From: Rickettsiales bacterium
Lineage (GTDB): Bacteria; Pseudomonadota; Alphaproteobacteria; Rs-D84
Reading direction: 5' to 3'
NCBI GenBank assembly: GCA_031283565.1
Contig: JAITBM010000034.1
Location: forward strand, 1 to 18,588
DNA length: 18,588 bases
The notes below the pieces were generated by a model. It saw only the letters and a list, made by a program, of their open reading frames with translations. It ran no database searches and was not told the origin of the DNA. Position numbers and translations under genes: made by a program. Shown piece after piece: positions 1 through 13,499 of the stretch (the stretch's first letter is position 1; every line of letters starts with the position of its first letter).

Positions 1-248
1 TTTTTTGTAACTGACTCGATGGCGTAGACCGGAAAACCCAATATCGCTAGCACGACGGCGGGGAATCCGGCGCCGCTGCCAAGATCTATGACAGTTGCGT
101 CCGGCGCCAAAAATTTCGCCAGTTGAGCCGAATCCATGGTATGCCGCTCGCGCACATGGGGCAGGGTGGAGTTGGCAACCAGATTCACGCGGACGTTCCA
201 TTTAGTCAGCAACTTTTCATATTTATCGAATTTTTCTTCAATTGTCAT
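1..248 (-). CDS. rsmG: 16S rRNA (guanine-N7) methyltransferase RsmG, 5' part only
   Basis: This is the N-terminal 82 codons of RsmG (GidB), cut by the left window edge. RsmG methylates a guanine of the 530 loop of 16S rRNA using S-adenosylmethionine. The visible part has the family signatures in order: a helical N-terminus ending KWNVRVNLVA (about residues 16-25), the RERHTMDSAQL segment (the family's 'ERHxxDSL', about 33-43), and the SAM-binding motif VIDLGSGAGFPAVVLAI (about 53-69). The start is ATG at 248-246; an in-frame TAG lies 10 nt upstream, so no longer start exists. There is no Shine-Dalgarno sequence, but a TATAGT hexamer sits 8 nt before the ATG, suggesting a leaderless mRNA. rsmG usually follows mnmG; here mnmG is 5 kb away, so the classic gidA-gidB pair is split. 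Confidence 0.93.
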   Translation of the reverse strand, partial: MTIEEKFDKYEKLLTKWNVRVNLVANSTLPHVRERHTMDSAQLAKFLAPDATVIDLGSGAGFPAVVLAILGFPVYAIESVTK

Positions 249-256
249 AGTCGCAT

Positions 257-262
257 ACTATA
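257..262 (-). promoter_or_regulatory. Predicted -10 element of rsmG (leaderless)
   Basis: The minus strand reads TATAGT, then 8 nt, then the rsmG ATG. A TTGAAA at 283-278 could be the -35, but its spacer is only 15 nt. If the hexamer is the -10, transcription starts at or next to the A of the ATG. Confidence 0.5.
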
Positions 263-295
263 AGGAACATAATAAAATTTCAAGCGAATCCTATA

Positions 296-306
296 TACTG
301 GCGCAA
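296..306 (+). repeat. Copy 1 of the TACTGGCGCAA repeat
   Basis: First of three perfect 11-bp copies, all in the same orientation, in the non-coding stretch. It is preceded by TATA, so it also forms a TATACT hexamer. Confidence 0.6.
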
Positions 307-1026
307 AAGGCAAGCTCGAAATTTTTTATACCGTATACGATTGCAGTCGCCCCGACCATCATTGAGTCCATTCGCGAGCAGATCATATCCAAATGCTGTT
401 CATGACTACAATCCTGATCCCATAGCCAAACATTTAGTTTTAGTAGACAAAATGTATAATAGAAAACAGAAAAAATTTACTTTCTGGCCTTTTTCATGTG
501 CAAGGATCTAACTAGTTGCGCATATGTCATAAAAACAACATTGCTGCCCTTAGCTTTCAAAAAGTACCCCTGAAATTGTCGATATTTACAGGAAATAGCG
601 CTTTTTCAAAAAAATGCGCAATGGCAAGATATAAATAAACCACTGTGCGAGCTTTGCATAATATAGGGAGGTGTGTTATTTTAGGCACGTTGCATGCGCA
701 CAATGACTTTTAAATAAGAGCGCATAATTATGTTGAAATTTTTGTTATTCATGTTTTTCATCTGTTGCCGTGTTATTTGCCATGTTGGGGCGAAATGGTA
801 GGCGCCGGTTATTGCAACAAAAAATATGCCGATTCCGGGCTTGAGACAAGGCTAAACAGTCCGCTCGACAATATCGGCGGCATCCCGCGACCCCAACGTC
901 ACGTAGATTTGCGGGATCATAGCGACGATCATATATTTATATGGAATGTTCCTTTATTCTGATGTCGGCGGCGATGCTATGAGCGACACCTCAACAATGT
1001 AAAGCAATAGTAATGACAAGCATCAT

Positions 1027-1037
1027 TACTGGCGCAA
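1027..1037 (+). repeat. Copy 2 of the TACTGGCGCAA repeat
   Basis: Second perfect copy. The flanks do not match copy 1; copies 2 and 3 both have TTCATG/TCATGG within about 20 nt downstream. Confidence 0.6.
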
Positions 1038-1247
1038 GACCCTGTCGTTGATTCATGAGCGTTCTTCTATATATGACTCGCCCGATTGCACGTACGCCTG
1101 GCGCTCTGGTTCGTTTCTCAGTTGTTCGCGCTTTGATATGCTAAATTTATTCTTAATTTTGTCGTGCAGCCTCGTCGCGCATGATTGTTAACTAAATCTT
1201 GCGGGCGGACCCGGGATAACACCTTTATATTTAGGTCTGAAAATGTT

Positions 1248-1258
1248 TACTGGCGCAA
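1248..1258 (+). repeat. Copy 3 of the TACTGGCGCAA repeat
   Basis: Third perfect copy, 72 nt upstream of the start of the 999-residue Cys-rich protein gene and about 60 nt upstream of its predicted -10. It could be an upstream regulatory site for that gene. Confidence 0.6.
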
Positions 1259-1314
1259 TGCCGGGATTGTCTTTTTCATGGCGGGGGATTTTTGTTTCGC
1301 GCGACGGGGATTTC

Positions 1315-1323
1315 TGGTATAAT
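1315..1323 (+). promoter_or_regulatory. Extended -10 promoter, leaderless
   Basis: TGG-TATAAT is a perfect -10 with the TGn extension; only 7 nt separate it from the ATG at 1331. No good -35 is visible at normal spacing (TTTCGC at 17 nt, TTGTTT at 20 nt), as expected for an extended -10 promoter. Transcription should begin at about the ATG. Confidence 0.65.
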
Positions 1324-1330
1324 CAATAAA

Positions 1331-4330
1331 ATGAAAAAAGGATTATTATTCGCTGCTTTATTCGCCGCAGTTTTCGGACTGAATACCGCCGGCGTTTTCG
1401 CCGCGCCGGAACGCGCCGTCCGCGGACAGGCGGTGCGGGCGGCGGCGACTTCTGCGGTAACGCCGGGCGCATCTGAGAATGTAGTCCCAAGCAGCGGGGT
1501 CCGAACTCGCGCGCCAACCGGAACCTCTGGAACTAATGGAACCAAAGGGCAGGGCGCTTCGTTGGGCGGTAGAGCTTCTGGCTCAACGGGGCGGAGCGGA
1601 GTTCCATCGAGCAGCGGGATTTCCAGCGGAACAGGGCAGGGCGCGGGCCCAAAGCCGGACTCTGCGCGGGCCGCCGCAAAAAAAAAGGTTGTTGGCAAAA
1701 AAAAGACCAGCAAGGATGACAGCGACAAGTTTTTAAGCGGCGGGAACGCCAAAAATACCGCATCGTTCGCCAAGGGTATTGACGACGATCCATGCAAGAC
1801 GTCTTATTGGGGGTGCATGGATCAGTTCTGCATGTCCGAAAACGACAACGGCGGACGCTGCGCCTGCTCGCAGGAATCCATTGCGCTAGACAACGAATAC
1901 GAAAAGGTTATCGGTGGCGTTGAAAAAGAAATCGCAAAAACTTCCGCACTCGAAACCGATATAGAAACAGGCGGAGATATTCGAGCCCAACTTTCAGATG
2001 ACGATGAAGAGGATGAAGACGGCGAAGAAGAAGCCTGCGGCGAATCTGATGTATCTTGCAAGGTCGGCGCGGCAAAGCTGACCGCCGCCGCGAAAATGTG
2101 CGACGCGCGCGTAGAGGCCGCATGCAGCGCCAATCACTCTTTTGTAAAAATGCAATACAACCAAAATATCCGGCAAGACTGTTCTGCCTATACGGCCGCA
2201 ATCAAAAACGCCCGTGAAAATGGGGCCGCCGTTCTCTATGCCGCGCAAAAGCAAATGCGCGAGACCGCGGCTGAAAAATTTTCGGCCGAAAACAAGTTCA
2301 ATGAGTCCGAATGCATTGTCGAGCTGCGGTCCTGCATGAACGGCTCCGACGCATGCGGCGCAGACTGGTCCAGATGCGTCAAAGGCGGAATAGCTGAAAA
2401 GCGCATTCACTGCGAAAACAAGGTGCTCGACAAATGTGCCGCTGTCCGCGAGTCTGTCTGGAATGCATTTGCCGCCGACATAGCCCCGACCCTCAAGAGC
2501 GTCGAAATTGCCAAGGACAACGACCGCCGCCAGGACTGCCTCGGCTCCGTGGCCGATTGCATTCACAAGGCCTGCAAAGACGACATTGAAGGAAAGGGCG
2601 TCGACACGATGGACGCCTGTCTCGCCAGGCCGGAAATGGCGCAGTCCTTTTGCAAGGTAGAACTGGATTCCTGCGACCTGAATGACACCATGTGGAACTT
2701 TGTGAAGGCAAAGCTTGCCGCCATGCGATCCAACGCATGCCAGGCCGAAGTCAAGACCTGCCTCGAAGACGAGGGGCGCTGCGGGAAGGATTACTCCAAT
2801 TGTCTGGGGCTCGACCTGCCGGCGCTTTACGATATGTGCCCCATTGACAAGCTTGTCGTCTGCAAGCAGGATAAGCAGGACTTTTCCCTATATGATTTGG
2901 GCAATATGGTTATGGGCATTTTCATGAACATTGACGACAAGGCCCTCGAGCAATGCCAGAAAATTGCCGAGGACAAAATGATCGAAGTCTGCGGATCCGT
3001 CGTCAACTGCAACCAACAGATAGATCCGAAAATCGGCACCATGTCCCTGCGGTACCAGAACACGAACGGAACGCATTACATATATGGGATGATCAACTGG
3101 GGATTCGTGAACGCGTCCGGCGGATTGGAGCGTCAGGCTTGCATCAGCGCCAAGCGGAAAGACTGCGGCAAATATCCCGCCGCCGGACAGCTATTGATCA
3201 CCAACTATCTCGACTTGGCAGCCAAAAGTCCGGATCCAGACAAGAAAAATGACAAAAATAACCTTGACCTCATCGAATCAGAACTTAAATCGGCCGCCGG
3301 GCAGATAAACAACATCCTATCGTTACTTGACGACGATCCGAAAATACAAAAATGCATAGGCGGGCGCGACTTGTCTCAGATTACTGGATCGAAGGAAAAG
3401 ACAGAGGCGCGATTCCCGGGACTTACCAATTCGTACCGCCGGATCATTGCCGAAGCCGCGCTGGTTCAGATCAAGGACAACTATAATGCTAAAATGATAG
3501 AGCTAATAAAAAAGGCTGAAAAGTCCGCCGATGAAATCGAAGCCGAATACATGTGCTATATAAAGCCGTCCACCGTCATAGGGCGCCGCGTGCCCGAAAA
3601 GCAGGAGGTGGTTGATTTGCAGGCGCTGAATGGATATTCTACATATAAGATCGTGGCGAAAAACTCCGCCACGCGGCAAGAACTGGCAGAACTGGCTTCA
3701 AAAAAGACCAAGGTCGCAATCGACGACATTCTCACCAAGGAGACAACCGTTCTATACAGCCCCGCAACCAGAAACTGCCATTTGTGCATGACTGATACCT
3801 TCCATGGAAAGCGCAAGTACGTTGATCCGCGCGTCGGAGAGACAGAGCAGATGAAGGCCGAGCTTGACAAGATTCAAAAGGAACAGAACGAGACAAAAAA
3901 GGCAGCTGCACTCCTGACTGTAGCAACCAGCGGTCTGGCCGTCGCCGCGCTCACCGGAGTTGGAATCGCCGCCGCCGTAACCGCTGCTAGTGCGGCGGCT
4001 GCGGTTGCGGCGGCTGCCGCCGCTGGCGCAGCCCTTGTTACAGCCGTCTCTTCTGGAGCAGCAGCAGCAACCATCGGAGCGGCCGTAGCGAGCACAACGG
4101 CCGCGCTGGGTACGGTAGCCACTACGGGTACAACGGCGGCGGCGGTGAGCGCGGCAGTTCCAGTAGTCGGATGGATAGCGGCTGGCGTTATCGTCGCCGG
4201 AATCGCAAGCTTCGCTATATGGTCCGCATTCAATAAAGAAGAAGATCCGATGGAAAAAGTCGTTACAAAGACAGTCGATTATTGCGTCGACGAGGTCATC
4301 GGCGAGGTATCGGCCACAAAACCGAAATAA
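1331..4330 (+). CDS. Secreted Cys-rich protein, 999 aa, unknown function
   Basis: I do not recognise a family. The order of parts is: a signal peptide (MKK then a hydrophobic stretch, cleavage near GVFA-AP, residue 24-25); a Ser/Gly/Ala/Arg/Pro low-complexity region (about 26-115); a Lys-rich patch (about 116-128); and a region with 38 cysteines. An acidic run SDDDEEDEDGEEE lies at about 223-235. Cysteines recur in a fixed rhythm: C-x6-C-x6-C-x6-C at residues 328-349 and again at 470-491, with shorter versions at 155/162/167, 403/410/415 and 441/448. Residues about 858-966 form a long Ala/Val/Thr/Gly hydrophobic block, likely membrane-inserted or a helical anchor, followed by a charged tail. 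I chose ATG 1331 because it creates the signal peptide and follows the -10 by 7 nt; a TTG at 1292 is in frame but lies upstream of that promoter. Likely periplasmic or surface-exposed with disulfides; the function is unknown. Confidence 0.88.
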   Translation: MKKGLLFAALFAAVFGLNTAGVFAAPERAVRGQAVRAAATSAVTPGASENVVPSSGVRTRAPTGTSGTNGTKGQGASLGGRASGSTGRSGVPSSSGISSGTGQGAGPKPDSARAAAKKKVVGKKKTSKDDSDKFLSGGNAKNTASFAKGIDDDPCKTSYWGCMDQFCMSENDNGGRCACSQESIALDNEYEKVIGGVEKEIAKTSALETDIETGGDIRAQLSDDDEEDEDGEEEACGESDVSCKVGAAKLTAAAKMCDARVEAACSANHSFVKMQYNQNIRQDCSAYTAAIKNARENGAAVLYAAQKQMRETAAEKFSAENKFNESECIVELRSCMNGSDACGADWSRCVKGGIAEKRIHCENKVLDKCAAVRESVWNAFAADIAPTLKSVEIAKDNDRRQDCLGSVADCIHKACKDDIEGKGVDTMDACLARPEMAQSFCKVELDSCDLNDTMWNFVKAKLAAMRSNACQAEVKTCLEDEGRCGKDYSNCLGLDLPALYDMCPIDKLVVCKQDKQDFSLYDLGNMVMGIFMNIDDKALEQCQKIAEDKMIEVCGSVVNCNQQIDPKIGTMSLRYQNTNGTHYIYGMINWGFVNASGGLERQACISAKRKDCGKYPAAGQLLITNYLDLAAKSPDPDKKNDKNNLDLIESELKSAAGQINNILSLLDDDPKIQKCIGGRDLSQITGSKEKTEARFPGLTNSYRRIIAEAALVQIKDNYNAKMIELIKKAEKSADEIEAEYMCYIKPSTVIGRRVPEKQEVVDLQALNGYSTYKIVAKNSATRQELAELASKKTKVAIDDILTKETTVLYSPATRNCHLCMTDTFHGKRKYVDPRVGETEQMKAELDKIQKEQNETKKAAALLTVATSGLAVAALTGVGIAAAVTAASAAAAVAAAAAAGAALVTAVSSGAAAATIGAAVASTTAALGTVATTGTTAAAVSAAVPVVGWIAAGVIVAGIASFAIWSAFNKEEDPMEKVVTKTVDYCVDEVIGEVSATKPK

Positions 4331-4430
4331 TGCGCGTTTTGCCGAGCGATTTATGCATGGTCTTTATTGGCAATTGCTCTACAATGACAAGAGTTGACTC
4401 TGCGAAAATCGTGCATATCAAGAGTTTCGC

Positions 4431-4536
4431 TGACACTTTTTGACAACCGAATCTTATGAAAAAGTCCGATTTTTTCTTGAAAACTAGCAAGATGCAATAC
4501 AAGATATCCATCGTCGCAATGTCGCAAAAAGTGTCA
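4431..4536. repeat. 12-bp perfect inverted repeat between converging genes
   Basis: TGACACTTTTTG at 4431-4442 is matched by its exact reverse complement at 4525-4536, 82 nt apart, inside the 256-nt gap (4331-4586) between the ends of the Cys-rich gene and rsmE. The left arm is part of TGACA-N5-TGACA (4431-4445), and a similar TGACA-N5-TGACT lies at 4385-4399. Neither arm is followed by a clear T-tract, so it is not an ordinary terminator. I see no gene in the gap. Confidence 0.55.
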
Positions 4537-4586
4537 ATGAAATTCTAATCATTTACAATATGACGCCGCAAACGAGAACGTATAGG

Positions 4587-5246
4587 CTATAAGAATTTAG
4601 AGCAAAGGGCAATAGCAGCCACCTCGGCCCGTAAAATTGTGGATCCCAGGGAAACGCCCGTCGCATCGCCAGAATCTAGCGACTCGAATTCGGATGGAGA
4701 AAATCCGCCCTCCGGACCGATAAGAAACCTGAGCGGACCGGGGAAAGAACGAAAGCTTAAAACGCCCCGCCATGGATCGACAGGCGCCCGCTCATCGCCA
4801 TAGATCAGACCCGATTTCGGCAGGTCGGTAAAACTCATCGGCAGACGTAATGCCGGAATCGAGCTGCGGCCCGACTGTTCCGCCGCCTCTATCATTATTT
4901 TTCGCATGCGGCCCCAATTGACATTGCGCGCCTCCGTTCGCTCCGTGATAACCGGCTGCAAAACTCCTACGCCCATTTGCGTGATGAATGAAACAAGATC
5001 CTCAACGCGTTTTATAGGCGCAAAGCAGAAAGTCCATTTGCCTGATGGATCCGCGCGACCGGTCGAATCGCCTATGACAAAATCGCCGCCGCGCACCGAT
5101 GCAAAAAATTCCAATCCGCCGCCGAACGCCAGAAATTTGTCCGTACGCATGACGCGCGTCAGATAATGAAGCTGCAAGGCATCAAGCGGACCAGACGCGC
5201 CGGCATGCAAATCACCATTTATAAAAAGCCGCGGCTGGTTCCTCAT
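4587..5246 (-). CDS. rsmE: 16S rRNA (uracil-N3) methyltransferase RsmE
   Basis: RsmE is a SPOUT-fold methyltransferase that makes m3U in helix 44 of 16S rRNA. The 219-residue protein has LHYLTRVMR near the N-terminus, the [17 protein letters not shown] segment, [13 protein letters not shown], the SAM-knot loop [13 protein letters not shown], and the closing [17 protein letters not shown]. Together these are diagnostic. A longer frame exists upstream, but ATG 5246 is the right start: it overlaps the mnmG stop as ATGA and has GGGAG 7 nt upstream. Slightly shorter than the usual 240 or so residues. It is the second gene of a mnmG-rsmE operon and is probably translationally coupled. It ends in TAG, which matters for interpreting the TAG in topA. 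Confidence 0.95.
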
Positions 5247-6895
5247 TTCAAAGCTCCCATCAGCACCATCAGCCCCGCCGGAGTCATGCCCTGAATCCGC
5301 GATGCAGCCGCCATGTTGGCGGGGCGGGCGGCCGCCAATTTCTGCCGAAGCTCGTTTGTCAGGCCTGCCATGTGCCAAAAGTCCAATCCGGCCGGGATTT
5401 TTATAGACATATCCCGCCGGACGCGCCCTATCTGCGCACTCTGCTGGGCGATATAACCCTCATAAAACTTGTCGTTTTCGGAGCGGAGCGGAGCCGCAGC
5501 AGCACTCATTTTTTCAAAATCGGACTCGCTTAACAGGCCGGTTTCGACTGCCATCTGGCCAAGCCGGAATACCGCGTTGTCGGCGCGAAGACTCAGCCGG
5601 TATTCGGCGCGGCTGGAAAACATGCGATACGGCTCGTCTATGCCCGCCGTTGTTATGTCGTCTATCATCACGCCGATCATCGAATTCGTACGATCCAATT
5701 GCAACGGCTCCGCGCCCAAAGCAAAAGCCGCCGCGTTAGCCCCCGCGACCAAGCCCTGCGCCGCCGCTTCCTCATACCCGCTGGTGCCGTTTATCTGGCC
5801 TGCTAAAAAAAGGCCCGGAATAGCTTTGGATTCCAAAGTTTCGCCCAAGGCGCGGGCGTCTATCGCGTCGTATTCCACGGCATAGCCGTATCGCGCGGCG
5901 CGGACGTTTTCAAGTCCCGGAATCGTTCTTAGAAAACGGTCCTGAATGTCCGCGCCGAATGAGGTCGACAGGCCGTTCGGATATATTATTGCCGAATCAA
6001 ATCCCTCTGGCTCCAAAAAAACATGGTGCGATTCATGTTCCGGAAACTTCATAACCTTGTCTTCAATCGAAGGGCAATAGCGCGGGCCTACTCCCTCTAT
6101 CGAACCGTTGTACATCGGGGCCAGCGCGATATTCGCCCTTATAATCTTGTGAGTTTCTTCCGTCGTGCGGGTGATGAAGCATGGAATTTGCGGGCGATTT
6201 TGGCATTCCCCATGGAACCATTCGTGAGGCTCGTCGCCGGTTTGCCGCTCCAATTTAGAAAAATCTATGCTGTCTTCAAGCAGTCTCGCCGGAGTTCCGG
6301 TTTTCAAACGCATTATAGAAAACCCGGCTCTTTTGAGGATTTCAGTCAATCCCGCCGAATTTTCCTGATATGAAGAATCGTCCAGCTGGCGGCCGGCCGG
6401 AATTCTTTCCCCTCCCCGCGTGGCCAGACCGTTCAGGAATGTTCCCGTTGTAATCACTATGGCGCGGGCACAGTATTTGTCGTCTACTATTTTCTTTTCC
6501 AAATCTAGCGTTTCTGCGGATTCATATATTATGTCGAACCGACCGGATGCCAAGCGCCGGGTCGCGGCGCGGTAAGCACCGCGGTCTACTTGCGCCCTCA
6601 GCGCCCGCGTCGCCGGACCGTGCGCCCTATTCAGCATGCGGAATTGGATTCCGGCCATGTCCGCCATACGGGGCATCGCCGCGCCAAGCGCATTCATCTC
6701 GGCCAGCATCTGGCTTTTGCCGGGCCCGCCTATCGACGGATTGCACGACATGGCCCCAAGGTCTTGCGGCGACTTCGTGAGCAGCAGCGTTTTCGCGCCG
6801 CGCCGCGCCGCCGCGCTTGCAGCTTCTATTCCGGCATGCCCGCCGCCTATGATGATAACATCCCATTCCGCCATTGAGTTTGCTTTTTTCAGCAT
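5243..6895 (-). CDS. mnmG: tRNA uridine-5-carboxymethylaminomethyl synthesis enzyme MnmG, internally shortened
   Basis: MnmG (GidA) is the FAD-dependent partner of MnmE; together they build (carboxymethyl)aminomethyl groups at U34 of tRNAs. The Rossmann motif [14 protein letters not shown] is at residues 13-26, followed by [51 protein letters not shown] and [14 protein letters not shown], all family hallmarks. The C-terminal [10 protein letters not shown] and [11 protein letters not shown] motifs are present. Length is 550 versus about 620-630: between FEKM (about residue 460) and YEGYI (478) some 60 residues of the C-terminal helical domain are missing, and a hairpin near residue 136 is also short. 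There is no frameshift. Two in-frame starts exist (6895, 6874); 6895 sits 8 nt after TATTAT. First gene of mnmG-rsmE, divergent from ileS. Confidence 0.95.
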
Positions 6896-6908
6896 TTGAT
6901 TCTATAAT
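6880..6908 (+). promoter_or_regulatory. ileS promoter
   Basis: TTGCTT (6880-6885), a 17-nt spacer and TATAAT (6903-6908). It predicts a leader of about 20 nt carrying AAGGTG (6925-6930), a ribosome site 5 nt before the ATG. The -35 lies inside the first codons of mnmG. Confidence 0.6.
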
Positions 6909-6932
6909 AAAAAAGATATAAATCAAGGTGAA
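6904..6932 (-). promoter_or_regulatory. mnmG promoter, leaderless, overlapping the ileS promoter
   Basis: On the minus strand TTCACC (6932-6927), a 17-nt spacer and TATTAT (6909-6904) lead to the mnmG ATG 8 nt later. There is no Shine-Dalgarno sequence between. The -10 shares five bases with the ileS -10 on the other strand. Confidence 0.55.
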
Positions 6933-6935
6933 AAA

Positions 6936-9900
6936 ATGACAAAATATTACCCGAATGTGCCGGCAAAGCCGGACTTTGTGAAAATCGAGCGCGAAATGCT
7001 GGCCTATTGGGCCGCGAACGACATATTTGAGAAGACCATCGCGCGGCGCGACAGAGCAGGCGAATATGTATTTTACGACGGGCCCGCATTCGGAAACGGA
7101 CTGCCACATTACGGACATATCTTGACATCCTATGTGAAGGACCTCAAGCCGCGCTATGAAACCATGCGAGGAAAAAAAGTCCGCCGCAACATCGGATGGG
7201 ACTGCCACGGATTGCCCGCCGAACTGGATGCGCAAAAGCACCTTGGCATTTCCGGCCGGGGCGAGATAGAAGAATTTGGAATAAAAGAATTCAACGAAGC
7301 CTGCCGCGGCCGAGTTCAGATGTATGTATCCGAATGGGAAAAGATTCTGACACGCATGGGCCGATGGATCGAATTTGACAAGACCTACCGCACCATGGAC
7401 GCATCATACACCGAAAGCGTGATTTGGGCCTTTAAGCAACTTTATGAAAAAGGCCTGATTTATGAGGGGGTTTATTCCATCTGGTATTCATATGGCGCGG
7501 AATCCACGGTCTCGAACTCCGAAACGCGGCAGGATGACTGTTATCACGAACGCGAGGATTCAGCCGTCACCGTAATGTTCGAACTTCGCGAGCCTATATC
7601 GGGGGCGCAATCCTATTTGCTGGCGTGGACTACCACGCCATGGACTTTGACAGCGAACTTTGCCTTGTGCGTAGGAGGCGACATAGACTACGCTGTAATG
7701 GAGCAGGGCGGACGGCATTACATAATCGCCGACGCCGCGCGCGAGCGGTACAAGCATCAATTGGCAGACGCAAAATTCGTAAGAATGATGAAAGGGCGAG
7801 ACTTGGTCGGGAAGACTTATGCTCCGCTGTTCGACTTCTTTGCCGATACGCCGGGAGCGTTCCGTATAGTGTCTGCCGATTATATAACTACAGAGGACGG
7901 AACCGGAATTGTTCATATCGCACCGTTTGGAGAAGAAGATCTGGAAGTCATGGAGCGGGAGGCCATCCTATGGCGGGCCCCCGTCGACCAAAAAGGGCGG
8001 TTCACCAAGCAAGTCGGAAAATACGAGGGGCTGCTGGTGTTCGATGCCATAGACCCTATCATAGCCGACCTAAAAGCCGCCGGGGTTCTTGTGAAAAAAG
8101 AGCAGTACCGGCACATGTATCCGCATTGCTGGCGCACGGGAGTGCCGCTGATAAGCATGCCGCTTTCAAGCTGGTATGTCGATGTGCCGCGCCTACGCGC
8201 CGACATGGTGCGGCTGAACAAGAAAATCGACTGGATTCCCATGCATATTCGGAACGGACAGATGGGAAAATGGCTGGAAAACGCAAGACCGTGGGCTATT
8301 TCGCGCTCAAGGTTTTGGGGTGCGCCGATTCCGGTATGGAAGTCCGAAAACCCCGCATATCCGCGAATGGACATTTATGGAAGCATCGCGGAATTAGAGC
8401 GGGACTTTGGGGTAAAAATCACTGATTTCCACCGCCCCGCAATCGACGCGCTTGTGCGGAAAAATCCCGACGACCCGACCGGAAAATCCATGATGAGGCG
8501 GGTTCCGGATGTGCTGGACTGCTGGTTCGAATCGGGCGCCATGCCGTTCGCGTCGATTCATTACCCCTTTGAAAACAAAGATTGGTTCGATGCGCATTTT
8601 CCGTCCGACTTCATTGTGGAATACATTGCGCAGACGCGCGGCTGGTTCTATAACATGATGGTTCTTTCGACCGCGCTGTTTGGCAAAGCGCCTTTCAGGG
8701 CAGCTGTATGCCATGGGGTCGTTGTCGATTCTGAGGGAAAAAAGCTGTCGAAATCCAAGCGCAATTATCCAGACCCTATGGAAATTATCGAAACGCTCGG
8801 AAGCGACAGCCTGCGCTGGTTTCTGATGTCTTCACCGATACTCTCAGGCGGGAATCTTTCCATAGAAAAAGACGGCGGGGATATCGCCAAGGCCGCCGGG
8901 CAGGTGCTTGCCCCGCTGTGGAACGCATTTTATTTCTTCAGTGTCTATGCGAATGCCGAAGGTGTCCGAGCCAAGGAAACCAATGATGCAAGCGATGCAT
9001 TGGATCGGTACATCCTGTCGAAGCTGCGGACCATGGTGCTGAACGCGCAGGAGCTACTGGATAAAAATCATATCAGCGAGGCCGCGCCTCTTTTCTCCGA
9101 ATTCATGGAAACGCTGAACAACTGGTATGTGCGCCGTAGTCGCGCGAGGTTCTGGGATGGCAAGGATCAATCGGCGTTTGACACGCTTTATACTGTATTG
9201 TGCATTCTATGCAGGGCGCTCGCGCCGTATCTTCCAATGACCGCAGACTATATTTTCCGCGCTTTGACGGGCAGAGAATCCGTTCATCTAGAGGATTGGC
9301 CGAATGTGTCCGCCATAGCCGCCGATCCAGATCTCGAAGAAAAAATGGACAAGGTCCGATCCATTATAGCGGTTGGAAAACTTTTGCGCGAAAGCCGCGG
9401 CCTGCGGAACCGGATGCCGCTCAAATCTTTGGAAATAGCAGGCTGGAACGATCCCGAATTTGACGGGATCATACGCGGCGAGCTGAATGTAAAGGAAGTG
9501 CGCCATGCGACCGATGTCTCCGGCGTCGCGGAAAAATTCATATATCTGCTGACACCAAAAATCGGAGCTAGGCTTGGCGCCAGGCTTGCACAGATCATTC
9601 CTGCATCGAAAGAAACAGGGTTCGATCCAGCCGCATGGGGAATTGCACCCGACGAATACGAATGCCGCCTGAAAGTCAAAGACGGAATCGCGGGAGCGGC
9701 TCTGCCAGACAACACAGCCGTAGTGGCGCTGAATACCGAAATAACGCCAGAACTTGTGATCGAAGGGCTGGCCAACGACGCCCTGCGGTTCATCCAAGAC
9801 GGGCGCAAGGCCATGGAGTTATCCGTTTCGGATCGTATAATCCTGTCCGTCGCGGGCGCCCGCGAAACCGTCATGGCGGTCCGCGCCCACGAGGCGCGTA

Positions 9901-10013
9901 TCATGGCAGACTCTTTGGCTGAAAAAATCGAATATGCGGACAGGCCTTTGGATCTGGCTGGAGAAATTGAGGGCAGGGCGTTTTCAATCAGCATAAAGCG
10001 CAGCGCGGCATGA
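6936..10013 (+). CDS. ileS: Isoleucyl-tRNA synthetase, eukaryote-like type (IleS2)
   Basis: A class I synthetase of 1025 residues that charges tRNA-Ile with isoleucine. The HIGH motif is P-HYGH at residues 57-61, followed by the type-specific GWDCHGLPAE. The WTTTPWTL editing-domain motif and DCWFESGAMPFA are present. The KMSKS motif is KLSKS at residues 603-607, within GKKLSKSKRNYPDP. The N-terminus (YYPNVPAKPDFVKIEREMLA) and these motifs match the Rickettsia/eukaryote-like group rather than the E. coli type. That group is known for low sensitivity to mupirocin. ATG 6936 has AAGGTG 5 nt upstream. The stop codon overlaps the nth start as ATGA, so the two genes form one transcript and are probably translationally coupled. 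Confidence 0.97.
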   Translation: MTKYYPNVPAKPDFVKIEREMLAYWAANDIFEKTIARRDRAGEYVFYDGPAFGNGLPHYGHILTSYVKDLKPRYETMRGKKVRRNIGWDCHGLPAELDAQKHLGISGRGEIEEFGIKEFNEACRGRVQMYVSEWEKILTRMGRWIEFDKTYRTMDASYTESVIWAFKQLYEKGLIYEGVYSIWYSYGAESTVSNSETRQDDCYHEREDSAVTVMFELREPISGAQSYLLAWTTTPWTLTANFALCVGGDIDYAVMEQGGRHYIIADAARERYKHQLADAKFVRMMKGRDLVGKTYAPLFDFFADTPGAFRIVSADYITTEDGTGIVHIAPFGEEDLEVMEREAILWRAPVDQKGRFTKQVGKYEGLLVFDAIDPIIADLKAAGVLVKKEQYRHMYPHCWRTGVPLISMPLSSWYVDVPRLRADMVRLNKKIDWIPMHIRNGQMGKWLENARPWAISRSRFWGAPIPVWKSENPAYPRMDIYGSIAELERDFGVKITDFHRPAIDALVRKNPDDPTGKSMMRRVPDVLDCWFESGAMPFASIHYPFENKDWFDAHFPSDFIVEYIAQTRGWFYNMMVLSTALFGKAPFRAAVCHGVVVDSEGKKLSKSKRNYPDPMEIIETLGSDSLRWFLMSSPILSGGNLSIEKDGGDIAKAAGQVLAPLWNAFYFFSVYANAEGVRAKETNDASDALDRYILSKLRTMVLNAQELLDKNHISEAAPLFSEFMETLNNWYVRRSRARFWDGKDQSAFDTLYTVLCILCRALAPYLPMTADYIFRALTGRESVHLEDWPNVSAIAADPDLEEKMDKVRSIIAVGKLLRESRGLRNRMPLKSLEIAGWNDPEFDGIIRGELNVKEVRHATDVSGVAEKFIYLLTPKIGARLGARLAQIIPASKETGFDPAAWGIAPDEYECRLKVKDGIAGAALPDNTAVVALNTEITPELVIEGLANDALRFIQDGRKAMELSVSDRIILSVAGARETVMAVRAHEARIMADSLAEKIEYADRPLDLAGEIEGRAFSISIKRSAA

Positions 10014-10699
10014 TGCAGCCTGGAAAATATTTCAACGCAATATGGAAGCAGTTCGGCGCAGACTGCCTGACCGAGCTATATCATACCAATGAATTCACCT
10101 TGGCGGTCGCGGTCATTCTGTCTGCCCAGGCCACGGACAAACACGTGAACACCGTGACACCCGGCTTGTTCGCCGTTGCGGATACGCCGGCAAAAATGAC
10201 AAATTTAGGAATCGCGGAATTAAAAGAGTTTATAAAATCAATATCTTTTTTCAACAACAAGGCGAAGAATATCATCGCATTATCGGAAATTCTGACGGGT
10301 TCCGGGGACTGCTATTATGAAAATAGCGCGGAGCAGAGCTGTTCGAACTGGCGGTTTCCAGCAAAATATCACTCGCGGGATGCTTTGATGATGCTGCCGG
10401 GAATAGGGCAGAAGACCGCCAACGTGGTATCGAATATCCTTTGGGGGGCACCGAATATCGGAGTGGATACGCACTTGTTTCGCCTGTCGCACCGATTCGG
10501 ATGGGCAGACGGGGCGGACGACACGCCGGAAAAAGTGGAGTCGAAACTTTTGGCGCGTATTCCGAAAAAATATCACGCTATTGCGAATCATGCCATGGTC
10601 ATGCATGGACGCTACATTTGCAAGGCTTTGCGCCCGGATTGCGGAAATTGCCCCGTGGCGCTTTTATGCGATTCAAAAGATAAAAAATTGGAGGCCTGA
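10010..10699 (+). CDS. nth: Endonuclease III, base-excision repair glycosylase/lyase
   Basis: Nth removes oxidised pyrimidines and cuts the abasic site. The 229-residue protein shows ILSAQATDKHVN (37-47), the helix-hairpin-helix LPGIGQKTANVV with catalytic Lys135, VDTHLFRLSHRFG with catalytic Asp153, and the 4Fe-4S ligands C204-x6-C211-x2-C214-x5-C220. Both catalytic residues sit about 15 positions later than in the E. coli enzyme because of an extra loop around residues 97-118 that itself carries two cysteines. The start at 10010 overlaps the ileS stop (ATGA); a second ATG follows at once at 10013. No Shine-Dalgarno sequence is visible, so coupling is likely. The last codons (10689-10699) overlap the 3' end of tRNA-Cys on the other strand. 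Confidence 0.95.
   Translation: MMQPGKYFNAIWKQFGADCLTELYHTNEFTLAVAVILSAQATDKHVNTVTPGLFAVADTPAKMTNLGIAELKEFIKSISFFNNKAKNIIALSEILTGSGDCYYENSAEQSCSNWRFPAKYHSRDALMMLPGIGQKTANVVSNILWGAPNIGVDTHLFRLSHRFGWADGADDTPEKVESKLLARIPKKYHAIANHAMVMHGRYICKALRPDCGNCPVALLCDSKDKKLEA
10682..10687 (-). terminator. T-tract ending tRNA-Cys transcription
   Basis: On the minus strand six T residues begin one base after the encoded CCA, so the acceptor/T-arm of the tRNA plus this U-tract could act as its terminator. The tract is also two Lys codons of nth. Confidence 0.45.
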
Positions 10700-10762
10700 G
10701 TCGGAATCGAACCGGCATAAACGGATTTGCAGTCCGGCGCATAACCATTCTGCCATCAAGCC
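10689..10762 (-). tRNA. tRNA-Cys (anticodon GCA)
   Basis: The minus strand folds as a 74-nt cloverleaf with encoded CCA. The acceptor stem GGCTTGA pairs with TCAGGCC (one G-T pair). The discriminator is T, as required for Cys identity. The anticodon loop is CTGCAAA with GCA, and the T-loop is TTCGATT. Weak points: a C-T at the top of the anticodon stem (27-43) and a C-A in the T-stem (50-64), neither enough to reject it. It is a stand-alone gene, opposite to nth (overlapping by 11 nt) and divergent from queH. Two Cys-rich proteins (38 and 34 Cys) lie in the same window, but I infer no functional link. Confidence 0.95.
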
Positions 10763-10770
10763 TTGGCGTC

Positions 10771-10799
10771 ATTTTACACCGGCAAATCTTGATTTGCAA
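10771..10799 (-). promoter_or_regulatory. tRNA-Cys promoter
   Basis: TTGCAA (10799-10794), a 17-nt spacer and TAAAAT (10776-10771) on the minus strand; only 8 nt then precede the mature 5' end, so the primary transcript would have almost no 5' extension. Confidence 0.6.
10782..10797. promoter_or_regulatory. Palindromic operator-like site between tRNA-Cys and queH
   Basis: GCAAATC-tt-GATTTGC is a perfect 7-bp dyad with a 2-bp centre. It covers most of both predicted -35 elements (queH TTGATT at 10789-10794, tRNA-Cys TTGCAA at 10799-10794). A dimeric regulator here could affect both genes. It could also be chance. Confidence 0.4.
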
Positions 10800-10816
10800 A
10801 CAAAATCTATTATAAT
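10789..10816 (+). promoter_or_regulatory. queH promoter, leaderless
   Basis: TTGATT (10789-10794), a 16-nt spacer and a perfect TATAAT (10811-10816); the queH ATG follows after 8 nt with no Shine-Dalgarno sequence. Confidence 0.65.
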
Positions 10817-10824
10817 CAGATAAA

Positions 10825-11382
10825 ATGGACAAAGGATCGTTGCTTTTGATGTCATGTTGCGCGCCATGTTCGGCGGACGCGATTAAAAAGCTGAAATCCG
10901 AAGGGCGGGATTTCTCCGTATTGTTCTATAACCCTAATATTTTCCCGCAGGAAGAATATGGCAGACGGCTGGCTGAACAGAGGGTTCTGTGCGAAAAACA
11001 CGGCGCAAAAATAACGGCCGGTCCGTGGAATCACAAGGCCTGGCTGACAAACATGCAAGGATTAGAGCGAGAGCCGGAGCGTGGCGCAAGGTGCGCAAAA
11101 TGCTTTGCATTGAGGGCGGCGTTCGGCATCAAGTTTGCACGAGAATACGGATTCCCTGCGGTAGCCTCGGTATTCGGAACCAGTCCGCACAAGGATCAGG
11201 GGCAGGTCGATGCCGCGTTCAGAATCGGCCCCTCCGGATTGTACGACAACCGTAGATTCGGATATTTGCCGGAGGGCTGGATGTATCGGCAAAAGTATTG
11301 CGGTTGTGAATTTTCAGAGACTTTTAATGCCGGCAATAAATCTATTGCGAACAAAAACAACCGGGACGGACATGAAAACTGA
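10825..11382 (+). CDS. queH: Epoxyqueuosine reductase QueH
   Basis: QueH (DUF208) catalyses the last step of queuosine synthesis, reducing epoxyqueuosine in tRNAs with GUN anticodons; it is unrelated to the cobalamin enzyme QueG. The 185-residue protein has the family's cysteine pairs: SCCAPC (C11, C12, C15), GARCAKC (C90, C93) and YCGCEFS (C159, C161), which supply the Fe-S and iron ligands. FYNPNIFPQEEYGRR and the GTSPHKDQGQ segment also match. ATG 10825 is 8 nt after TATAAT, so the message is probably leaderless. The 3' end overlaps the next gene by 11 nt. QueH does not need cobalamin and is common in organisms with anaerobic or reduced lifestyles. Confidence 0.9.
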   Translation: MDKGSLLLMSCCAPCSADAIKKLKSEGRDFSVLFYNPNIFPQEEYGRRLAEQRVLCEKHGAKITAGPWNHKAWLTNMQGLEREPERGARCAKCFALRAAFGIKFAREYGFPAVASVFGTSPHKDQGQVDAAFRIGPSGLYDNRRFGYLPEGWMYRQKYCGCEFSETFNAGNKSIANKNNRDGHEN

Positions 11383-11674
11383 AAAAAGAGATACGCGTCC
11401 GATGTTCTTGGGGCCGGCAATAAATCGTTTTTTGATAAAAATCGGAGCGACCATGTCCGACGGCGATTTAGCGGACAATTGGAATGAAATATCCGCCGGA
11501 CTGCCTAAATCGAAACTGGCGAAATTGTCGTGTGGAAAAAAAAACCGGACGGTGAGGATTGTGGTCGAAAATCCGGCCGAACGGCTGACGCTTTCCTACG
11601 CGGCCCCAGAGCTGATCCGGCGAATCAACGCCTACTTCGGATATGACGCCGTGACGAAAGTGGCAATCCGATAA
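11372..11674 (+). CDS. DUF721 protein, DciA-type helicase-loader candidate
   Basis: A 100-residue protein of the DUF721/DciA type. DciA proteins help load the replicative helicase DnaB in bacteria that lack DnaC or DnaI. The most telling part is the C-terminus, APELIRRINAYFGYDAVTKV (about residues 76-95), which matches the family's conserved 'lIeriNaffGy..V' block; upstream, RFLIKIGATMSDGDLADNWNEI fits the usual N-terminal helices. It is shorter than typical alphaproteobacterial members, which often have an extended tail. The ATG at 11372 lies within the end of queH (11-nt overlap, different frame), so it is probably co-transcribed and coupled. A longer frame upstream lies entirely inside queH and is rejected as the start. 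Neighbouring dnaG fits the replication theme but is not in the same operon. Confidence 0.72.
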   Translation: MKTEKRDTRPMFLGPAINRFLIKIGATMSDGDLADNWNEISAGLPKSKLAKLSCGKKNRTVRIVVENPAERLTLSYAAPELIRRINAYFGYDAVTKVAIR

Positions 11675-11699
11675 AAAGCGCAATTTAATTACTTTGCGC
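11673..11699 (-). terminator. Terminator of the SufD-like gene
   Basis: On the minus strand GCGCAA (11699-11694) pairs with TTGCGC (11683-11678) and is followed by TTTTT. The T-tract touches the dciA stop codon. A competing 7-bp stem, TTGCGCG (11694-11700) with CGCGCAA (11712-11718), shares one arm, so two alternative hairpins are possible in this convergent gap. Confidence 0.55.
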
Positions 11700-11738
11700 G
11701 GACGGCTACGGCGCGCAATTATGATATTGAAGAAAATG

Positions 11739-12395
11739 CTATGCCTCGCCCATAAAGACCCGTTCCAACAGCGATTCGGCCTGCGGACCGGATAAGCCCG
11801 CCGTTTCAAGATACTGCATTTCTGGTTCTCCAGGACTATAAATATACGCGCCGTGCCGCGCGTCCAGCGGCGCCGACGATATGCGCTGGGCCGGAGACAT
11901 TTTTAGCGCAAGCGCCTTGGGACTAAGAAGAGCGGCAAAGTTTATATCCGACTTCGCGCCCTTCACGCCCATAGCTATGTTGGCGACGCCGGAAAGATCG
12001 CTGGACGATCCGGAGCCGGCAACGATCCGGGCAGCGCAGTTTATTTCCGTATCGTCCGCATTGTTGTTCCCTTCGACCGTCAAAGTAAAAATTCCGGCGT
12101 TTTTGCAAAAAACTAAGCCGTCGAAAAATGCGCCACGTTCGCTCGCGTCTATTATTATATGCAAATCAGCCGAATCCGAAACTTCCAGACGTGCGGTTAA
12201 AAAGACCTTTTGCGGGTCGGCCGCTATGCGCCATTCCACGGATCCAGAGATCCTGCCCACGTGCATTATGTGCAGCGGCAGGTTGGCTCCGCCGGACTCA
12301 TCCGAAAGCTCGGGGGCAAAAAGCCCGTTCCGATAAACCCGGGTCCGTGCATGAAATGTCCGCATGTTCTTGAAAAAGTCAAAAAGATATGTCAT
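11739..12395 (-). CDS. Minimal SufD/SufB-family Fe-S assembly protein
   Basis: A 218-residue protein whose C-terminal half matches the SufB/SufD beta-helix core. GAKSDINFAALLSPKALAL (about 146-164) corresponds to the family's 'GAqkTda.q.n..LLLs..A' strand region. LDARHGAYIYSPGEPEMQYL (about 177-196) corresponds to 'DVkcsHGAtvG.ld.e.lFYL', and LSGPQAESLLERVF to the closing 'A..lLi.gF'. His181 aligns with the conserved SufD histidine thought to help assemble the nascent cluster. Normal SufD proteins are about 420 residues, so the N-terminal half is missing, with no trace of it nearby. It stands alone, without sufB, sufC or sufS. The start at 12395 is chosen because TATAAT lies 9 nt upstream; M11 (12365) is an alternative. 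Ends in TAG. Family assignment is fairly sure; retained activity is inference. Confidence 0.72.
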   Translation of the reverse strand: MTYLFDFFKNMRTFHARTRVYRNGLFAPELSDESGGANLPLHIMHVGRISGSVEWRIAADPQKVFLTARLEVSDSADLHIIIDASERGAFFDGLVFCKNAGIFTLTVEGNNNADDTEINCAARIVAGSGSSSDLSGVANIAMGVKGAKSDINFAALLSPKALALKMSPAQRISSAPLDARHGAYIYSPGEPEMQYLETAGLSGPQAESLLERVFMGEA

Positions 12396-12398
12396 TAT
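12370..12398 (+). promoter_or_regulatory. ychF promoter
   Basis: TTGAAA (12370-12375), a 17-nt spacer and CATTAT (12393-12398). Predicted start near 12405 gives a leader of about 18 nt that contains the ribosome site. The -10 overlaps the start codon of the divergent SufD-like gene. Confidence 0.45.
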
Positions 12399-12404
12399 TC
12401 GTCC

Positions 12405-12433
12405 ATTATAAAGGATAACATCATGGGATTCAA
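12405..12433 (-). promoter_or_regulatory. SufD-like gene promoter, leaderless
   Basis: On the minus strand TTGAAT (12433-12428), a 17-nt spacer and TATAAT (12410-12405); the ATG follows 9 nt later. The -35 lies inside the first codons of ychF. Confidence 0.6.
12410..12415 (+). promoter_or_regulatory. ychF ribosome-binding site
   Basis: AAAGGA, 7 nt before ATG 12423. It fixes the ychF start in a frame that stays open much further upstream. Confidence 0.75.
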
Positions 12434-13499
12434 TTGCGGAATTGTCGGACTTCCGAATATCGGAAAATCAACCATGTTCAATGCCCTGACGGCTACTGTC
12501 GCGGCTGACGTGGCGAATTACCCATTTTGCACCATAGATCCAAACCTCGGCAAGGCGGTCGTACCGGATGAAACTCTGACCGCCATCGCGGAATTTGAAA
12601 AGTCTGCAAAAATAATTCCAGCCCAGCTCGAAATCGTCGATATCGCCGGATTGGTCAGGGGTGCCAGCGCAGGCGAGGGCCTTGGCAACAAATTCCTGTC
12701 CCATATCCAATCGACCGACGCCATCATTCATGTGGTGCGCTGCTTCGAAGATGACGATGTCATTCATGTGAACGGTCGCGTCGATCCGCTGGCCGACATT
12801 GATGCTATAAACACCGAGATCATGCTGGCGGACCTGGAAACTTTGGACAAAGCTATAAAAAACCTGGAAAAGAAAACCCGCGCACAAGATAAAGAGGCCG
12901 CCAAAAATCTTGCCGCAGCCATGAAGATAAAGTGCGGGCTCGAAAACGGAATGCCTGCGAGAGAGAGCGGCGAAATGCTATCCGAACTGAGACTTCTAAG
13001 TGAAAAACCCGTGATCTATGTGTGCAATGTGGACGAGAAATCATCGGCTTTCGGAAATGCATTTTCCCAGTCCGTTTGTGAAAAATATGCAAAAGAGCCG
13101 GTGCTTGTGATCTCATCCAAAATAGAAATGGAGATCGCGCTGATAACGGATGCTGCTGAAAGAAAAATGTTTTTAGACGATTTGGGATTGGAGGAATCGG
13201 GGCTTTCGCAAATAATAAGGACTGGGTACAGGGTGCTCGGGCTCCAGACTTTTTACACCGCCGGACCGAAAGAGGCCCATGCATGGACCGTGCACAAAGG
13301 AACTTTGGCGCCAGAGGCCGCCGGCAAAATCCATTCGGACTTTGAAAAGGGATTCATTCGCGCCGAAATCATTCGGCCAAACGACTGGCTGACGCTTGGA
13401 GGCGAGGCGGCCGTCAAAGCAAAAGGCCTGTGCCGTACCGTCGGACGGGATTACGAAATGCAGGACGGCGATATTGCTAATTTCCTGGTTAGCAGTTAA
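12423..13499 (+). CDS. ychF: Ribosome-associated ATPase YchF (OLA1 family)
   Basis: YchF is an Obg-related P-loop protein that prefers ATP, binds ribosomes and is linked to stress responses and translation control. The 358-residue protein (family about 363) starts with the P-loop GLPNIGKST (9-17), then NYPFCTIDPN, the G3 motif DIAGLVRGAS, and the variant G4 motif NVDE (in YVCNVDEKS) in place of NKxD, which explains ATP preference. The C-terminal TGS domain has LGLQTFYTAGPKEAHAWTV, FEKGFIRAEII and the closing DGDIANFLV. The start is set by AAAGGA 7 nt upstream of ATG 12423. Divergent from the SufD-like gene with interleaved promoters, and followed by a GC-rich terminator. Confidence 0.97.
   Translation: MGFNCGIVGLPNIGKSTMFNALTATVAADVANYPFCTIDPNLGKAVVPDETLTAIAEFEKSAKIIPAQLEIVDIAGLVRGASAGEGLGNKFLSHIQSTDAIIHVVRCFEDDDVIHVNGRVDPLADIDAINTEIMLADLETLDKAIKNLEKKTRAQDKEAAKNLAAAMKIKCGLENGMPARESGEMLSELRLLSEKPVIYVCNVDEKSSAFGNAFSQSVCEKYAKEPVLVISSKIEMEIALITDAAERKMFLDDLGLEESGLSQIIRTGYRVLGLQTFYTAGPKEAHAWTVHKGTLAPEAAGKIHSDFEKGFIRAEIIRPNDWLTLGGEAAVKAKGLCRTVGRDYEMQDGDIANFLVSS

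Follow-up and report, generated by a model that had tools for sequence, protein, structure and literature searches.

Leaderless genes of the TA-led class are translated from a 5'-terminal AUG, by 70S ribosomes and in a kasugamycin-resistant manner, and sigma-70 RNA polymerase starts transcription about 7 nt past the -10 hexamer. Zheng et al. 2011 (PMC3160421) surveyed 117 alpha-proteobacterial genomes and report TA-led genes in 2 of them, at a mean of 6.3%. For Caulobacter crescentus (PMC4117421), 375 leaderless mRNAs, 9.6% of CDSs, are reported, and for Sinorhizobium meliloti (PMC3616915) 171. The stretch of DNA analyzed here, 18,588 nt of contig JAITBM010000034.1, is referred to as the window; it comes from a Rickettsiales bacterium of the GTDB order Rs-D84, to which Enterousia has been assigned in a published paper. 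By MnmG comparison, its nearest named relatives are reduced-genome MAGs from termite gut and rumen and of Candidatus Enterousia, and the bacterium itself is a small-genomed Alphaproteobacterium, probably of gut habitat.

The genome very probably features two compact kinds of sigma-70 promoter, one of which, with the -10 hexamer close to the start codon, would produce leaderless or near-leaderless mRNAs; four of five window genes are assigned to it, while mnmG is uncertain. The five genes had been singled out in a first-pass annotation for -10-like hexamers located 7–9 nt ahead of the ATG: on rereading the sequence, all are present exactly as described (Table 1). The reported lack of Shine-Dalgarno sequences at these genes is also true, but largely forced, as the hexamer leaves almost no room for one. 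The Shine-Dalgarno-like sites indicated for ileS and ychF were both recognized, and rsmE, nth and dciA each overlap the preceding gene, as had been stated.

Table 1. Features of the window discussed in the text; promoter elements and leaderless assignments are predicted.
Feature	Position	Strand	Remarks
rsmG, 16S rRNA methyltransferase, predicted leaderless	3..248	-	ATG 248; cut by window start; Pfam GidB 2.5e-19
TATAGT, -10 of rsmG	257..262	-	TATAGT-N8-ATG
TATAAT, -10 of 999-aa gene	1318..1323	+	TATAAT-N7-ATG
999-aa Cys-rich protein gene, predicted leaderless	1331..4330	+	ATG 1331
mnmG, leaderless reading ambiguous	5243..6895	-	ATG 6895; TIGR00136 640 bits; second in-frame ATG at 6874
TATTAT, hexamer of mnmG	6904..6909	-	TATTAT-N8-ATG
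TATAAT, 27 nt ahead of ileS ATG	6903..6908	+	shares 5 bp with mnmG hexamer, opposite strand
AAGGTG, Shine-Dalgarno-like site of ileS	6925..6930	+	
ileS, leadered contrast gene	6936..10013	+	TIGR00392 774.7 bits
TATAAT, -10 of queH	10811..10816	+	TATAAT-N8-ATG
queH, epoxyqueuosine reductase, predicted leaderless	10825..11382	+	ATG 10825; Pfam QueH 1.3e-40
SufD-like (SUFBD core) gene, predicted leaderless or near-leaderless	11739..12395	-	ATG 12395; Pfam PF01458 27.8 bits (cut-off 27), scanned as 11739-12431
TATAAT, -10 of sufD-like gene	12405..12410	-	TATAAT-N9-ATG
AAAGGA, Shine-Dalgarno-like site of ychF	12410..12415	+	
ychF, leadered contrast gene	12423..13499	+	Pfam YchF-GTPase_C 1.2e-32; divergent from sufD-like, 27 nt separating start codons
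TTGAAT, -35 of sufD-like gene	12428..12433	-	17-bp spacer to -10; within first ychF codons (by eye)

The genome of origin is a 56% complete draft, sampled through 53 readable contigs (61 of 102 were taken, 8 of which read "N"). First-like genes were scored in this genome (178) and over three genomes of the same genus (459), with all starts predicted from coding potential alone by a gene caller favouring ATG; the SufD-like gene was missed by the caller, and is therefore absent from the set of 23 near genes described below. N indicates the number of nucleotides between the end of the -10 hexamer and the start codon, and genes with a -10 at N6–9 form the near class. As controls, the upstream regions of these genes were shuffled 200 times with dinucleotide composition kept.

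Upstream of the 459 first-like genes, exact TATAAT occurs 2 times at N0–5, 26 at N6–9, 8 at N10–17, 27 at N18–24 and 23 at N25–53, thus forming two peaks, at N6–9 and N18–24, over a background of 0.8 per position. In the genome of origin, 10 of the 178 genes carry the exact hexamer at N6–9, against a shuffle mean of 0.4 (maximum 3); when one mismatch is allowed, the number rises to 23, against 3.7 ± 1.9 (maximum 9), and 19 of 170 genes are near once the window is removed. Of 177 genes that follow a same-strand gene at under 25 nt, 1 has a match at N6–9. Ca. Enterousia shows a weak excess of one-mismatch hexamers (15 vs 8.1, shuffle maximum 16), and exact matches are 6 vs 1.2. When all ATGs are considered, TATAAT is found in the genome of origin 58 times at N6–9 and 28 at N12–15, the top ratio among the 105 sampled Alphaproteobacteria with at least 50 matches (p = 0.0008, uncorrected for 191 genomes). 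The narrower comparison of N7–9 with N12–14 gives 36 vs 26, lower than in relatives such as G009 (57 vs 23) and G050 (56 vs 24); the family totals are 2609 vs 2073, with a ratio above 1 in 32 of 36 genomes. A reversed-pattern control (36 vs 4) was rejected as a measure of effect size, which it overstates: at control distances, too, TATAAT...ATG greatly outnumbers its reversed form, so that the distance control (58 vs 28) is the fairer one.

These distributions modify two points of the first-pass annotation. The -10 to ATG distance, there called fixed, ranges genome-wide from 6 to 9. The suggested genome-wide excess of TANNNT at 7–9 nt is borne out by exact TATAAT, which peaks at N6–9, but not by the loose motif, distinct at N6 alone: upstream of first-like genes, TANNNT gives 30, 16, 16 and 14 matches at N6–9, against roughly 7–23 elsewhere beyond N10, and over all ATGs it shows no peak.

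The two distances differ in the associated signals. Shine-Dalgarno sequences are present in 44 of the 56 genes with a -10 (at most one mismatch) at N18–24 and in 115 of the 331 without a -10 at any scored distance; in the near class they are found in 0 of 52, a value almost forced by hexamer geometry. A -35 element, with at least 4 of 6 matches and a spacer of 16–18 to the -10, accompanies 28 of 49 near genes, vs 15.7% in the shuffles. ATG starts are found in 49 of 52 near genes and in 274 of 331 of the remaining class, figures to be read in view of the caller's preference for ATG. A search pattern for the anti-Shine-Dalgarno tail of 16S rRNA was matched in none of the five genus genomes, and in one Enterousia locus. 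By the definitions used, a near -10 and a Shine-Dalgarno are both lacking in 242 of the 459 first-like genes. That leaderless genes account for most first genes, as initially proposed, holds in the window; in the genome of origin, in contrast, near genes are 23 of 178 (about 4 expected by chance), or about 11% after chance subtraction, vs 62 with a Shine-Dalgarno, the remainder featuring neither.

In the first kind of promoter, the -10 would end 6–9 nt ahead of the ATG and, with transcription beginning some 7 nt past the hexamer, the 5' end of the mRNA would be located at the AUG or within about 4 nt of it. Lacking a Shine-Dalgarno, such an mRNA would depend for initiation on its 5'-terminal AUG, with 70S ribosomes as the most likely agents. 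A -10 located 18–24 nt upstream, as in the second kind, would generate a minimal leader bearing a Shine-Dalgarno. The motif, the peak in its spacing, the enrichment of -35 elements, the conservation seen for some genes and the absence from the E. coli control are direct observations, whereas the actual 5' ends and how translation is initiated are inferred.

Conservation of the class was evaluated on start-aligned orthologue pairs. Within the genus, 6 pairs are near-near, none near-SD, 2 near-other and 23 SD-SD; with Ca. Enterousia, 2 are near-near, 2 near-SD and 9 near-other, suggesting that the near class is often not kept across genera. For single window genes, a -10 at N6–10 is found in 19 of 28 rsmG family orthologues and in 18 of 29 sufD-like ones, 17 of the latter at N9 or N10; 36 of the 40 family genomes contain a match to the SufD-like protein. 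The -10 of the 999-aa gene is preceded by TGG, forming by eye an extended -10. This protein has many paralogues and gave no match in a Pfam scan; near spacing is found in both of its closest homologues, whose starts were taken as the nearest in-frame ATG, with alignments beginning only at residues 133–134. For queH, TTGATT is seen by eye 16 nt further upstream of the -10, and near spacing is present in just 2 of 25 relatives. Since the TATAAT peak, the -35 enrichment, the conservation of the class within the genus and the E. coli control agree, rsmG, the SufD-like and the 999-aa genes are best read as giving leaderless transcripts (leader of 0 to about 4 nt). Of the five leaderless transcripts originally predicted, that of queH is less well supported, though fair, and that of mnmG is doubtful.

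For mnmG, near spacing is found in 3 of 26 relatives. In three close relatives a TTTTTTTATTATA block is kept upstream of the gene, 14, 11 and 12 nt ahead of their starts; the alignment of their MnmG with that of the window begins at residue 8, 11 and 8 of the latter. The real start could thus be the ATG 21 nt downstream, preceded by a leader, and the leaderless reading of this gene is ambiguous.

A more general alternative would place the true starts further downstream, with near ATGs arising as artefacts of annotation and the -10s generating ordinary leaders of 20–60 nt. In its favour are the alignment of most MnmG homologues from window residue 8, with the in-frame ATG just mentioned, and the presence of 11 start-aligned near-other pairs. 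As a general explanation it is nonetheless quite unlikely: most rsmG orthologues align from residue 1, and nearly all sufD-like ones from residue 1 or 2; by eye, a signal-peptide-like stretch opens the 999-aa protein at the near ATG; and wrong starts would not be expected to yield a sharp TATAAT peak with 2 matches at N0–5.

It is scarcely credible that near hexamers arise by chance, from the composition of AT-rich intergenic DNA beside ATGs. TATAAT is indeed common in AT-rich relatives, where control counts climb, and TANNNT gives little signal; the shuffles and distance controls reported above, the 0 of 110 matches at N6–9 in E. coli and the enrichment of -35 elements at the right spacer all oppose this view. 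Finally, the -10s might be real, with the protein mainly produced from a more distant promoter or a processed RNA, and the leaderless transcript minor or untranslated. A second TATTAT at N20 of rsmG fits this possibility, as does Zymomonas, where an upstream promoter is reported to be also present at about half of the leaderless units (n=52; PMC7566282). We regard it as very unlikely, as the 999-aa and sufD-like genes have no second one-mismatch -10 inside 60 nt, and none of 28 rsmG orthologues has a Shine-Dalgarno.

In all 30 loci fetched from the family, own locus included, the sufD-like and ychF genes are divergent, and around half of these loci have start codons 26–28 nt apart. One Shine-Dalgarno leader, but not two, would fit into such a gap, which might force the Fe-S gene to be leaderless. 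In E. coli, YchF inhibits leaderless translation, so that here it might directly determine the output of its leaderless neighbour. The fixed pair could then form a two-gene feedback unit tying Fe-S assembly to ribosome state, a rather unlikely reading; the conserved pair still offers a naturally occurring system for testing whether YchF acts in leaderless translation as proposed.

Two further correlations were rejected. Judging by Pfam names, 8 of the 23 near genes look related to translation or RNA modification (Era-like GTPase, LepA, RbfA, Dus, RsmG, MnmG, QueH, RMKL-like methyltransferase); in two relatives, only 2 of 29 are (RbfA, small-domain methyltransferase), and a Shine-Dalgarno control sample (20 drawn from 62, one discarded because its coordinate exceeded the contig) contains at least 3 of 19 (L21, GatC, class II tRNA synthetase). 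Leaderless starts as a packing of divergent genes show no clear genome-wide trend over gap classes: for ATG genes, a near -10 is found in 1 of 15 at gaps below 25 nt, 3 of 12 at 25–44, 7 of 35 at 45–79, 7 of 36 at 80–149 and 13 of 91 at 150 or more.

The results would extend predicted leaderless expression, of a known kind, to uncultured, genome-reduced gut Alphaproteobacteria, a little-studied lineage, and may offer gene finders a promoter-based clue to start codons in such genomes. Near genes resemble the TA-led genes of Zheng et al. 2011 (PMC3160421), where TANNNT lies about 12 bp ahead of the start codon, with a positional peak and an excess over dinucleotide shuffles; unlike there, TANNNT here is distinct at N6 alone. 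As in Caulobacter crescentus (PMC4117421) and Sinorhizobium meliloti (PMC3616915), also Alphaproteobacteria, leaderless genes are a minority, mapped experimentally in those species and predicted from sequence here. In Deinococcus-Thermus (PMC12340547) the -10 similarly lies a few bp ahead of the ORF, at a constrained distance; an added -35 merely enhanced expression there, whereas the natural promoters described here are enriched in -35 matches. The mnmG and ileS hexamers, overlapping on opposite strands, recall prokaryotic bidirectional promoters (PMC12825309, PMC10268837), from which they differ in that one partner may be leaderless; their divergent activity is putative.

The spacing between -10 hexamer and start codon was evaluated in genes called on 53 readable contigs of the source draft (61 of 102 were taken, 8 of which read N) and on stretches of two genomes of the same genus, G003 and G004. 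The draft amounts to 556,022 bases in 102 contigs, with an estimated completeness of 56%. Starts were chosen by codon statistics, ATG being preferred and upstream signals ignored; the caller is imperfect, and the window's SufD-like gene escaped it. Genes divergent from their upstream neighbour, or at least 40 nt behind it, were classified as first-like: 178 in the source genome, 131 in G004 and 150 in G003. Below, N followed by a number gives the nucleotides between hexamer and start codon, and "near" indicates a -10 at N6-9, one mismatch being allowed.

In these 459 genes, exact TATAAT is found 26 times at N6-9, between 2 occurrences at N0-5 and 8 at N10-17; a further 27 fall at N18-24 and 23 at N25-53. 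The peak persists when the window is excluded (451 genes; 11, 5, 4 and 4 at N6, N7, N8 and N9). Each genome exceeds its shuffled upstream regions at N6-9: exact matches are 10 vs 0.4 in the source genome, 10 vs 0.4 in G004 and 6 vs 0.5 in G003, and one-mismatch matches 23 vs 3.7, 15 vs 2.8 and 14 vs 3.2, respectively. A -10 at N6-9 precedes only 1 of 177 genes that follow another gene of the same strand by under 25 nt, and none of 110 first-like genes in four 50-kb stretches of E. coli K-12, used as a control. Candidatus Enterousia, from another genus, features a weak excess (227 genes; exact 6 vs 1.2, one-mismatch 15 vs 8.1). The TANNNT scan at 7-9 nt, proposed in the first-pass annotation, proved weaker than the TATAAT test: first-like genes give 30, 16, 16 and 14 at N6 to N9 vs roughly 7-23 elsewhere beyond N10, and over all ATGs no peak is present.

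The two spacing modes differ in meaning. Where the -10 (at most one mismatch) lies at N18-24, a Shine-Dalgarno sequence is found 4-11 nt before the start in 44 of 56 genes; at N6-9 it is found in 0 of 52, a figure almost dictated by geometry, and with no -10 at any scored distance in 115 of 331. ATG starts 49 of the 52 near genes, as favored by the caller; 28 of these 49 have a -35 (at least 4 matches, spacer 16-18 bp), vs 15.7% of shuffles. Near promoters look like ordinary sigma-70 promoters, pressed up to the start codon.

All five -10/ATG motifs first proposed as leaderless are present exactly as described (see table). Gene identities are backed by Pfam or NCBIfam, marginally for SufD-like (Pfam 27.8 bits, cut-off 27), except for the 999-aa gene, for which the Pfam scan gave zero matches; its protein belongs to a large family, matched 6 to 22 times per genome across 40 family genomes.

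Motifs and neighboring features, in window coordinates unless a locus is named
Feature	Position	Observation
rsmG		TATAGT-N8-ATG
999-aa Cys-rich gene	1331-4330	TATAAT-N7-ATG
mnmG		TATTAT-N8-ATG
mnmG/ileS, divergent	6903-6909	-10-like hexamers on opposite strands share 5 bp (symmetric TATAATA)
queH		TATAAT-N8-ATG
tRNA-Cys	10689-10762	adjoins queH, opposite strand
SufD-like		TATAAT-N9-ATG; TTGAAT 17 bp upstream of -10, within ychF start codons
SufD-like/ychF, divergent	12395-12423	
569-aa Cys-rich protein	13616-15325	no Pfam match
topA frame, TAG	17244-17246	apparent further C-terminal part follows in frame (by eye)
Divergent pair, locus L128	1274-2860	60 nt between; near -10 for both, promoters overlapping

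The suggestion that leaderless transcripts serve most first genes holds for the window only. Of roughly nine first genes there, four or five are near (counted by hand), vs 23 of 178 first-like genes in the source genome (19 of 170 without the window), or about 11% once chance is subtracted: the window is richer than the sampled genome. Of the 178, 62 have a Shine-Dalgarno sequence and 93 neither signal.

Among 191 Alphaproteobacteria, 105 genomes have at least 50 matches to TATAAT-ATG at N6-9 and N12-15; the source genome tops them (58 to 28, ratio 2.07, p 0.0008 uncorrected), the median being 1.04 and the maximum outside the family 1.67. On the narrower count, N7-9 vs N12-14, it is unremarkable (36 to 26), and is exceeded by G009 (57 to 23) and by G050, from another family (56 to 24). 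That count gives 2609 vs 2073 for the family (ratio above 1 in 32 of 36 genomes), 1477 vs 1316 for 18 genomes from the order's other families and 253 vs 255 for six other class members.

Orthologues were collected from up to 30 genomes per gene, own included, dropping loci with unusable starts (rsmG 1, queH 4, mnmG 4). For rsmG, 19 of 28 have a -10 at N6-10, 16 of them at N7, and none of the 28 a Shine-Dalgarno sequence; for sufD-like, 18 of 29 have a -10 at N6-10 and 2 a Shine-Dalgarno sequence. The same N6-10 spacing is found in both closest homologues of the 999-aa gene (2/2), in 2 of 25 for queH and in 3 of 26 for mnmG. In G003 (locus L178) an apparent tRNA 3' end lies just upstream of queH, about 7 nt from the ATG (by eye). 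MnmG of three relatives with a conserved TATTATA block aligns from residues 8, 11 and 8, and the block-to-start distance varies, making the leaderless reading of mnmG ambiguous. MnmG relatives comprise 30 loci at 59-72% identity, followed by a fall to 52% or less among the best 80; the nearest are MAGs from rumen, from termite gut (presumably, as we read isolate names) and Candidatus Enterousia.

Start-aligned reciprocal best hits among four genomes include 8 near-near pairs (six gene families), 2 near-Shine-Dalgarno and 11 near-other; the rest are 46 Shine-Dalgarno-Shine-Dalgarno, 26 Shine-Dalgarno-other and 32 other-other. Within the genus the three near categories count 6, 0 and 2, vs 2, 2 and 9 with Enterousia: the near class seems to be retained inside the genus and is often not shared outside. 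Enterousia itself is assigned to order Rs-D84 of GTDB (Alphaproteobacteria), and its genomes measure about 0.75-1.0 Mb (PMC12306168). The window probably belongs to that order as well.

A sufD-like match is present in 36 of 40 family genomes, and the gene is divergent from ychF in all 30 family loci fetched (L207-L236, own included). In 16 of the 30 the start codons are 26-28 nt apart, and in all 16 the upstream sequences place the sufD-like -10 at N9 or N10. YchF is described as an inhibitor, whose loss in E. coli increases translation from leaderless reporters (PMC8138138). The divergent pairing may be functional.

The pattern is well supported as sequence; the leaderless transcripts themselves are predictions. 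Literature searches, with most subscription journals outside their reach, returned nothing on leaderless genes in Rs-D84 or termite gut alphaproteobacteria, nor the word leaderless for RF32, Enterousia or CAG-239. Elsewhere, a 2011 survey of leaderless genes, marked by TANNNT about 12 bp before the start codon, reported them in 2 of 117 alpha-proteobacterial genomes (PMC3160421); 375 leaderless genes were mapped in Caulobacter, 9.6% of CDSs (PMC4117421), 171 in S. meliloti (PMC3616915) and 119 in Zymomonas (PMC7566282), and they have been studied in Deinococcus (PMC12340547). Set against these systems, the pattern predicted here would be a new instance of an already known type of gene expression.
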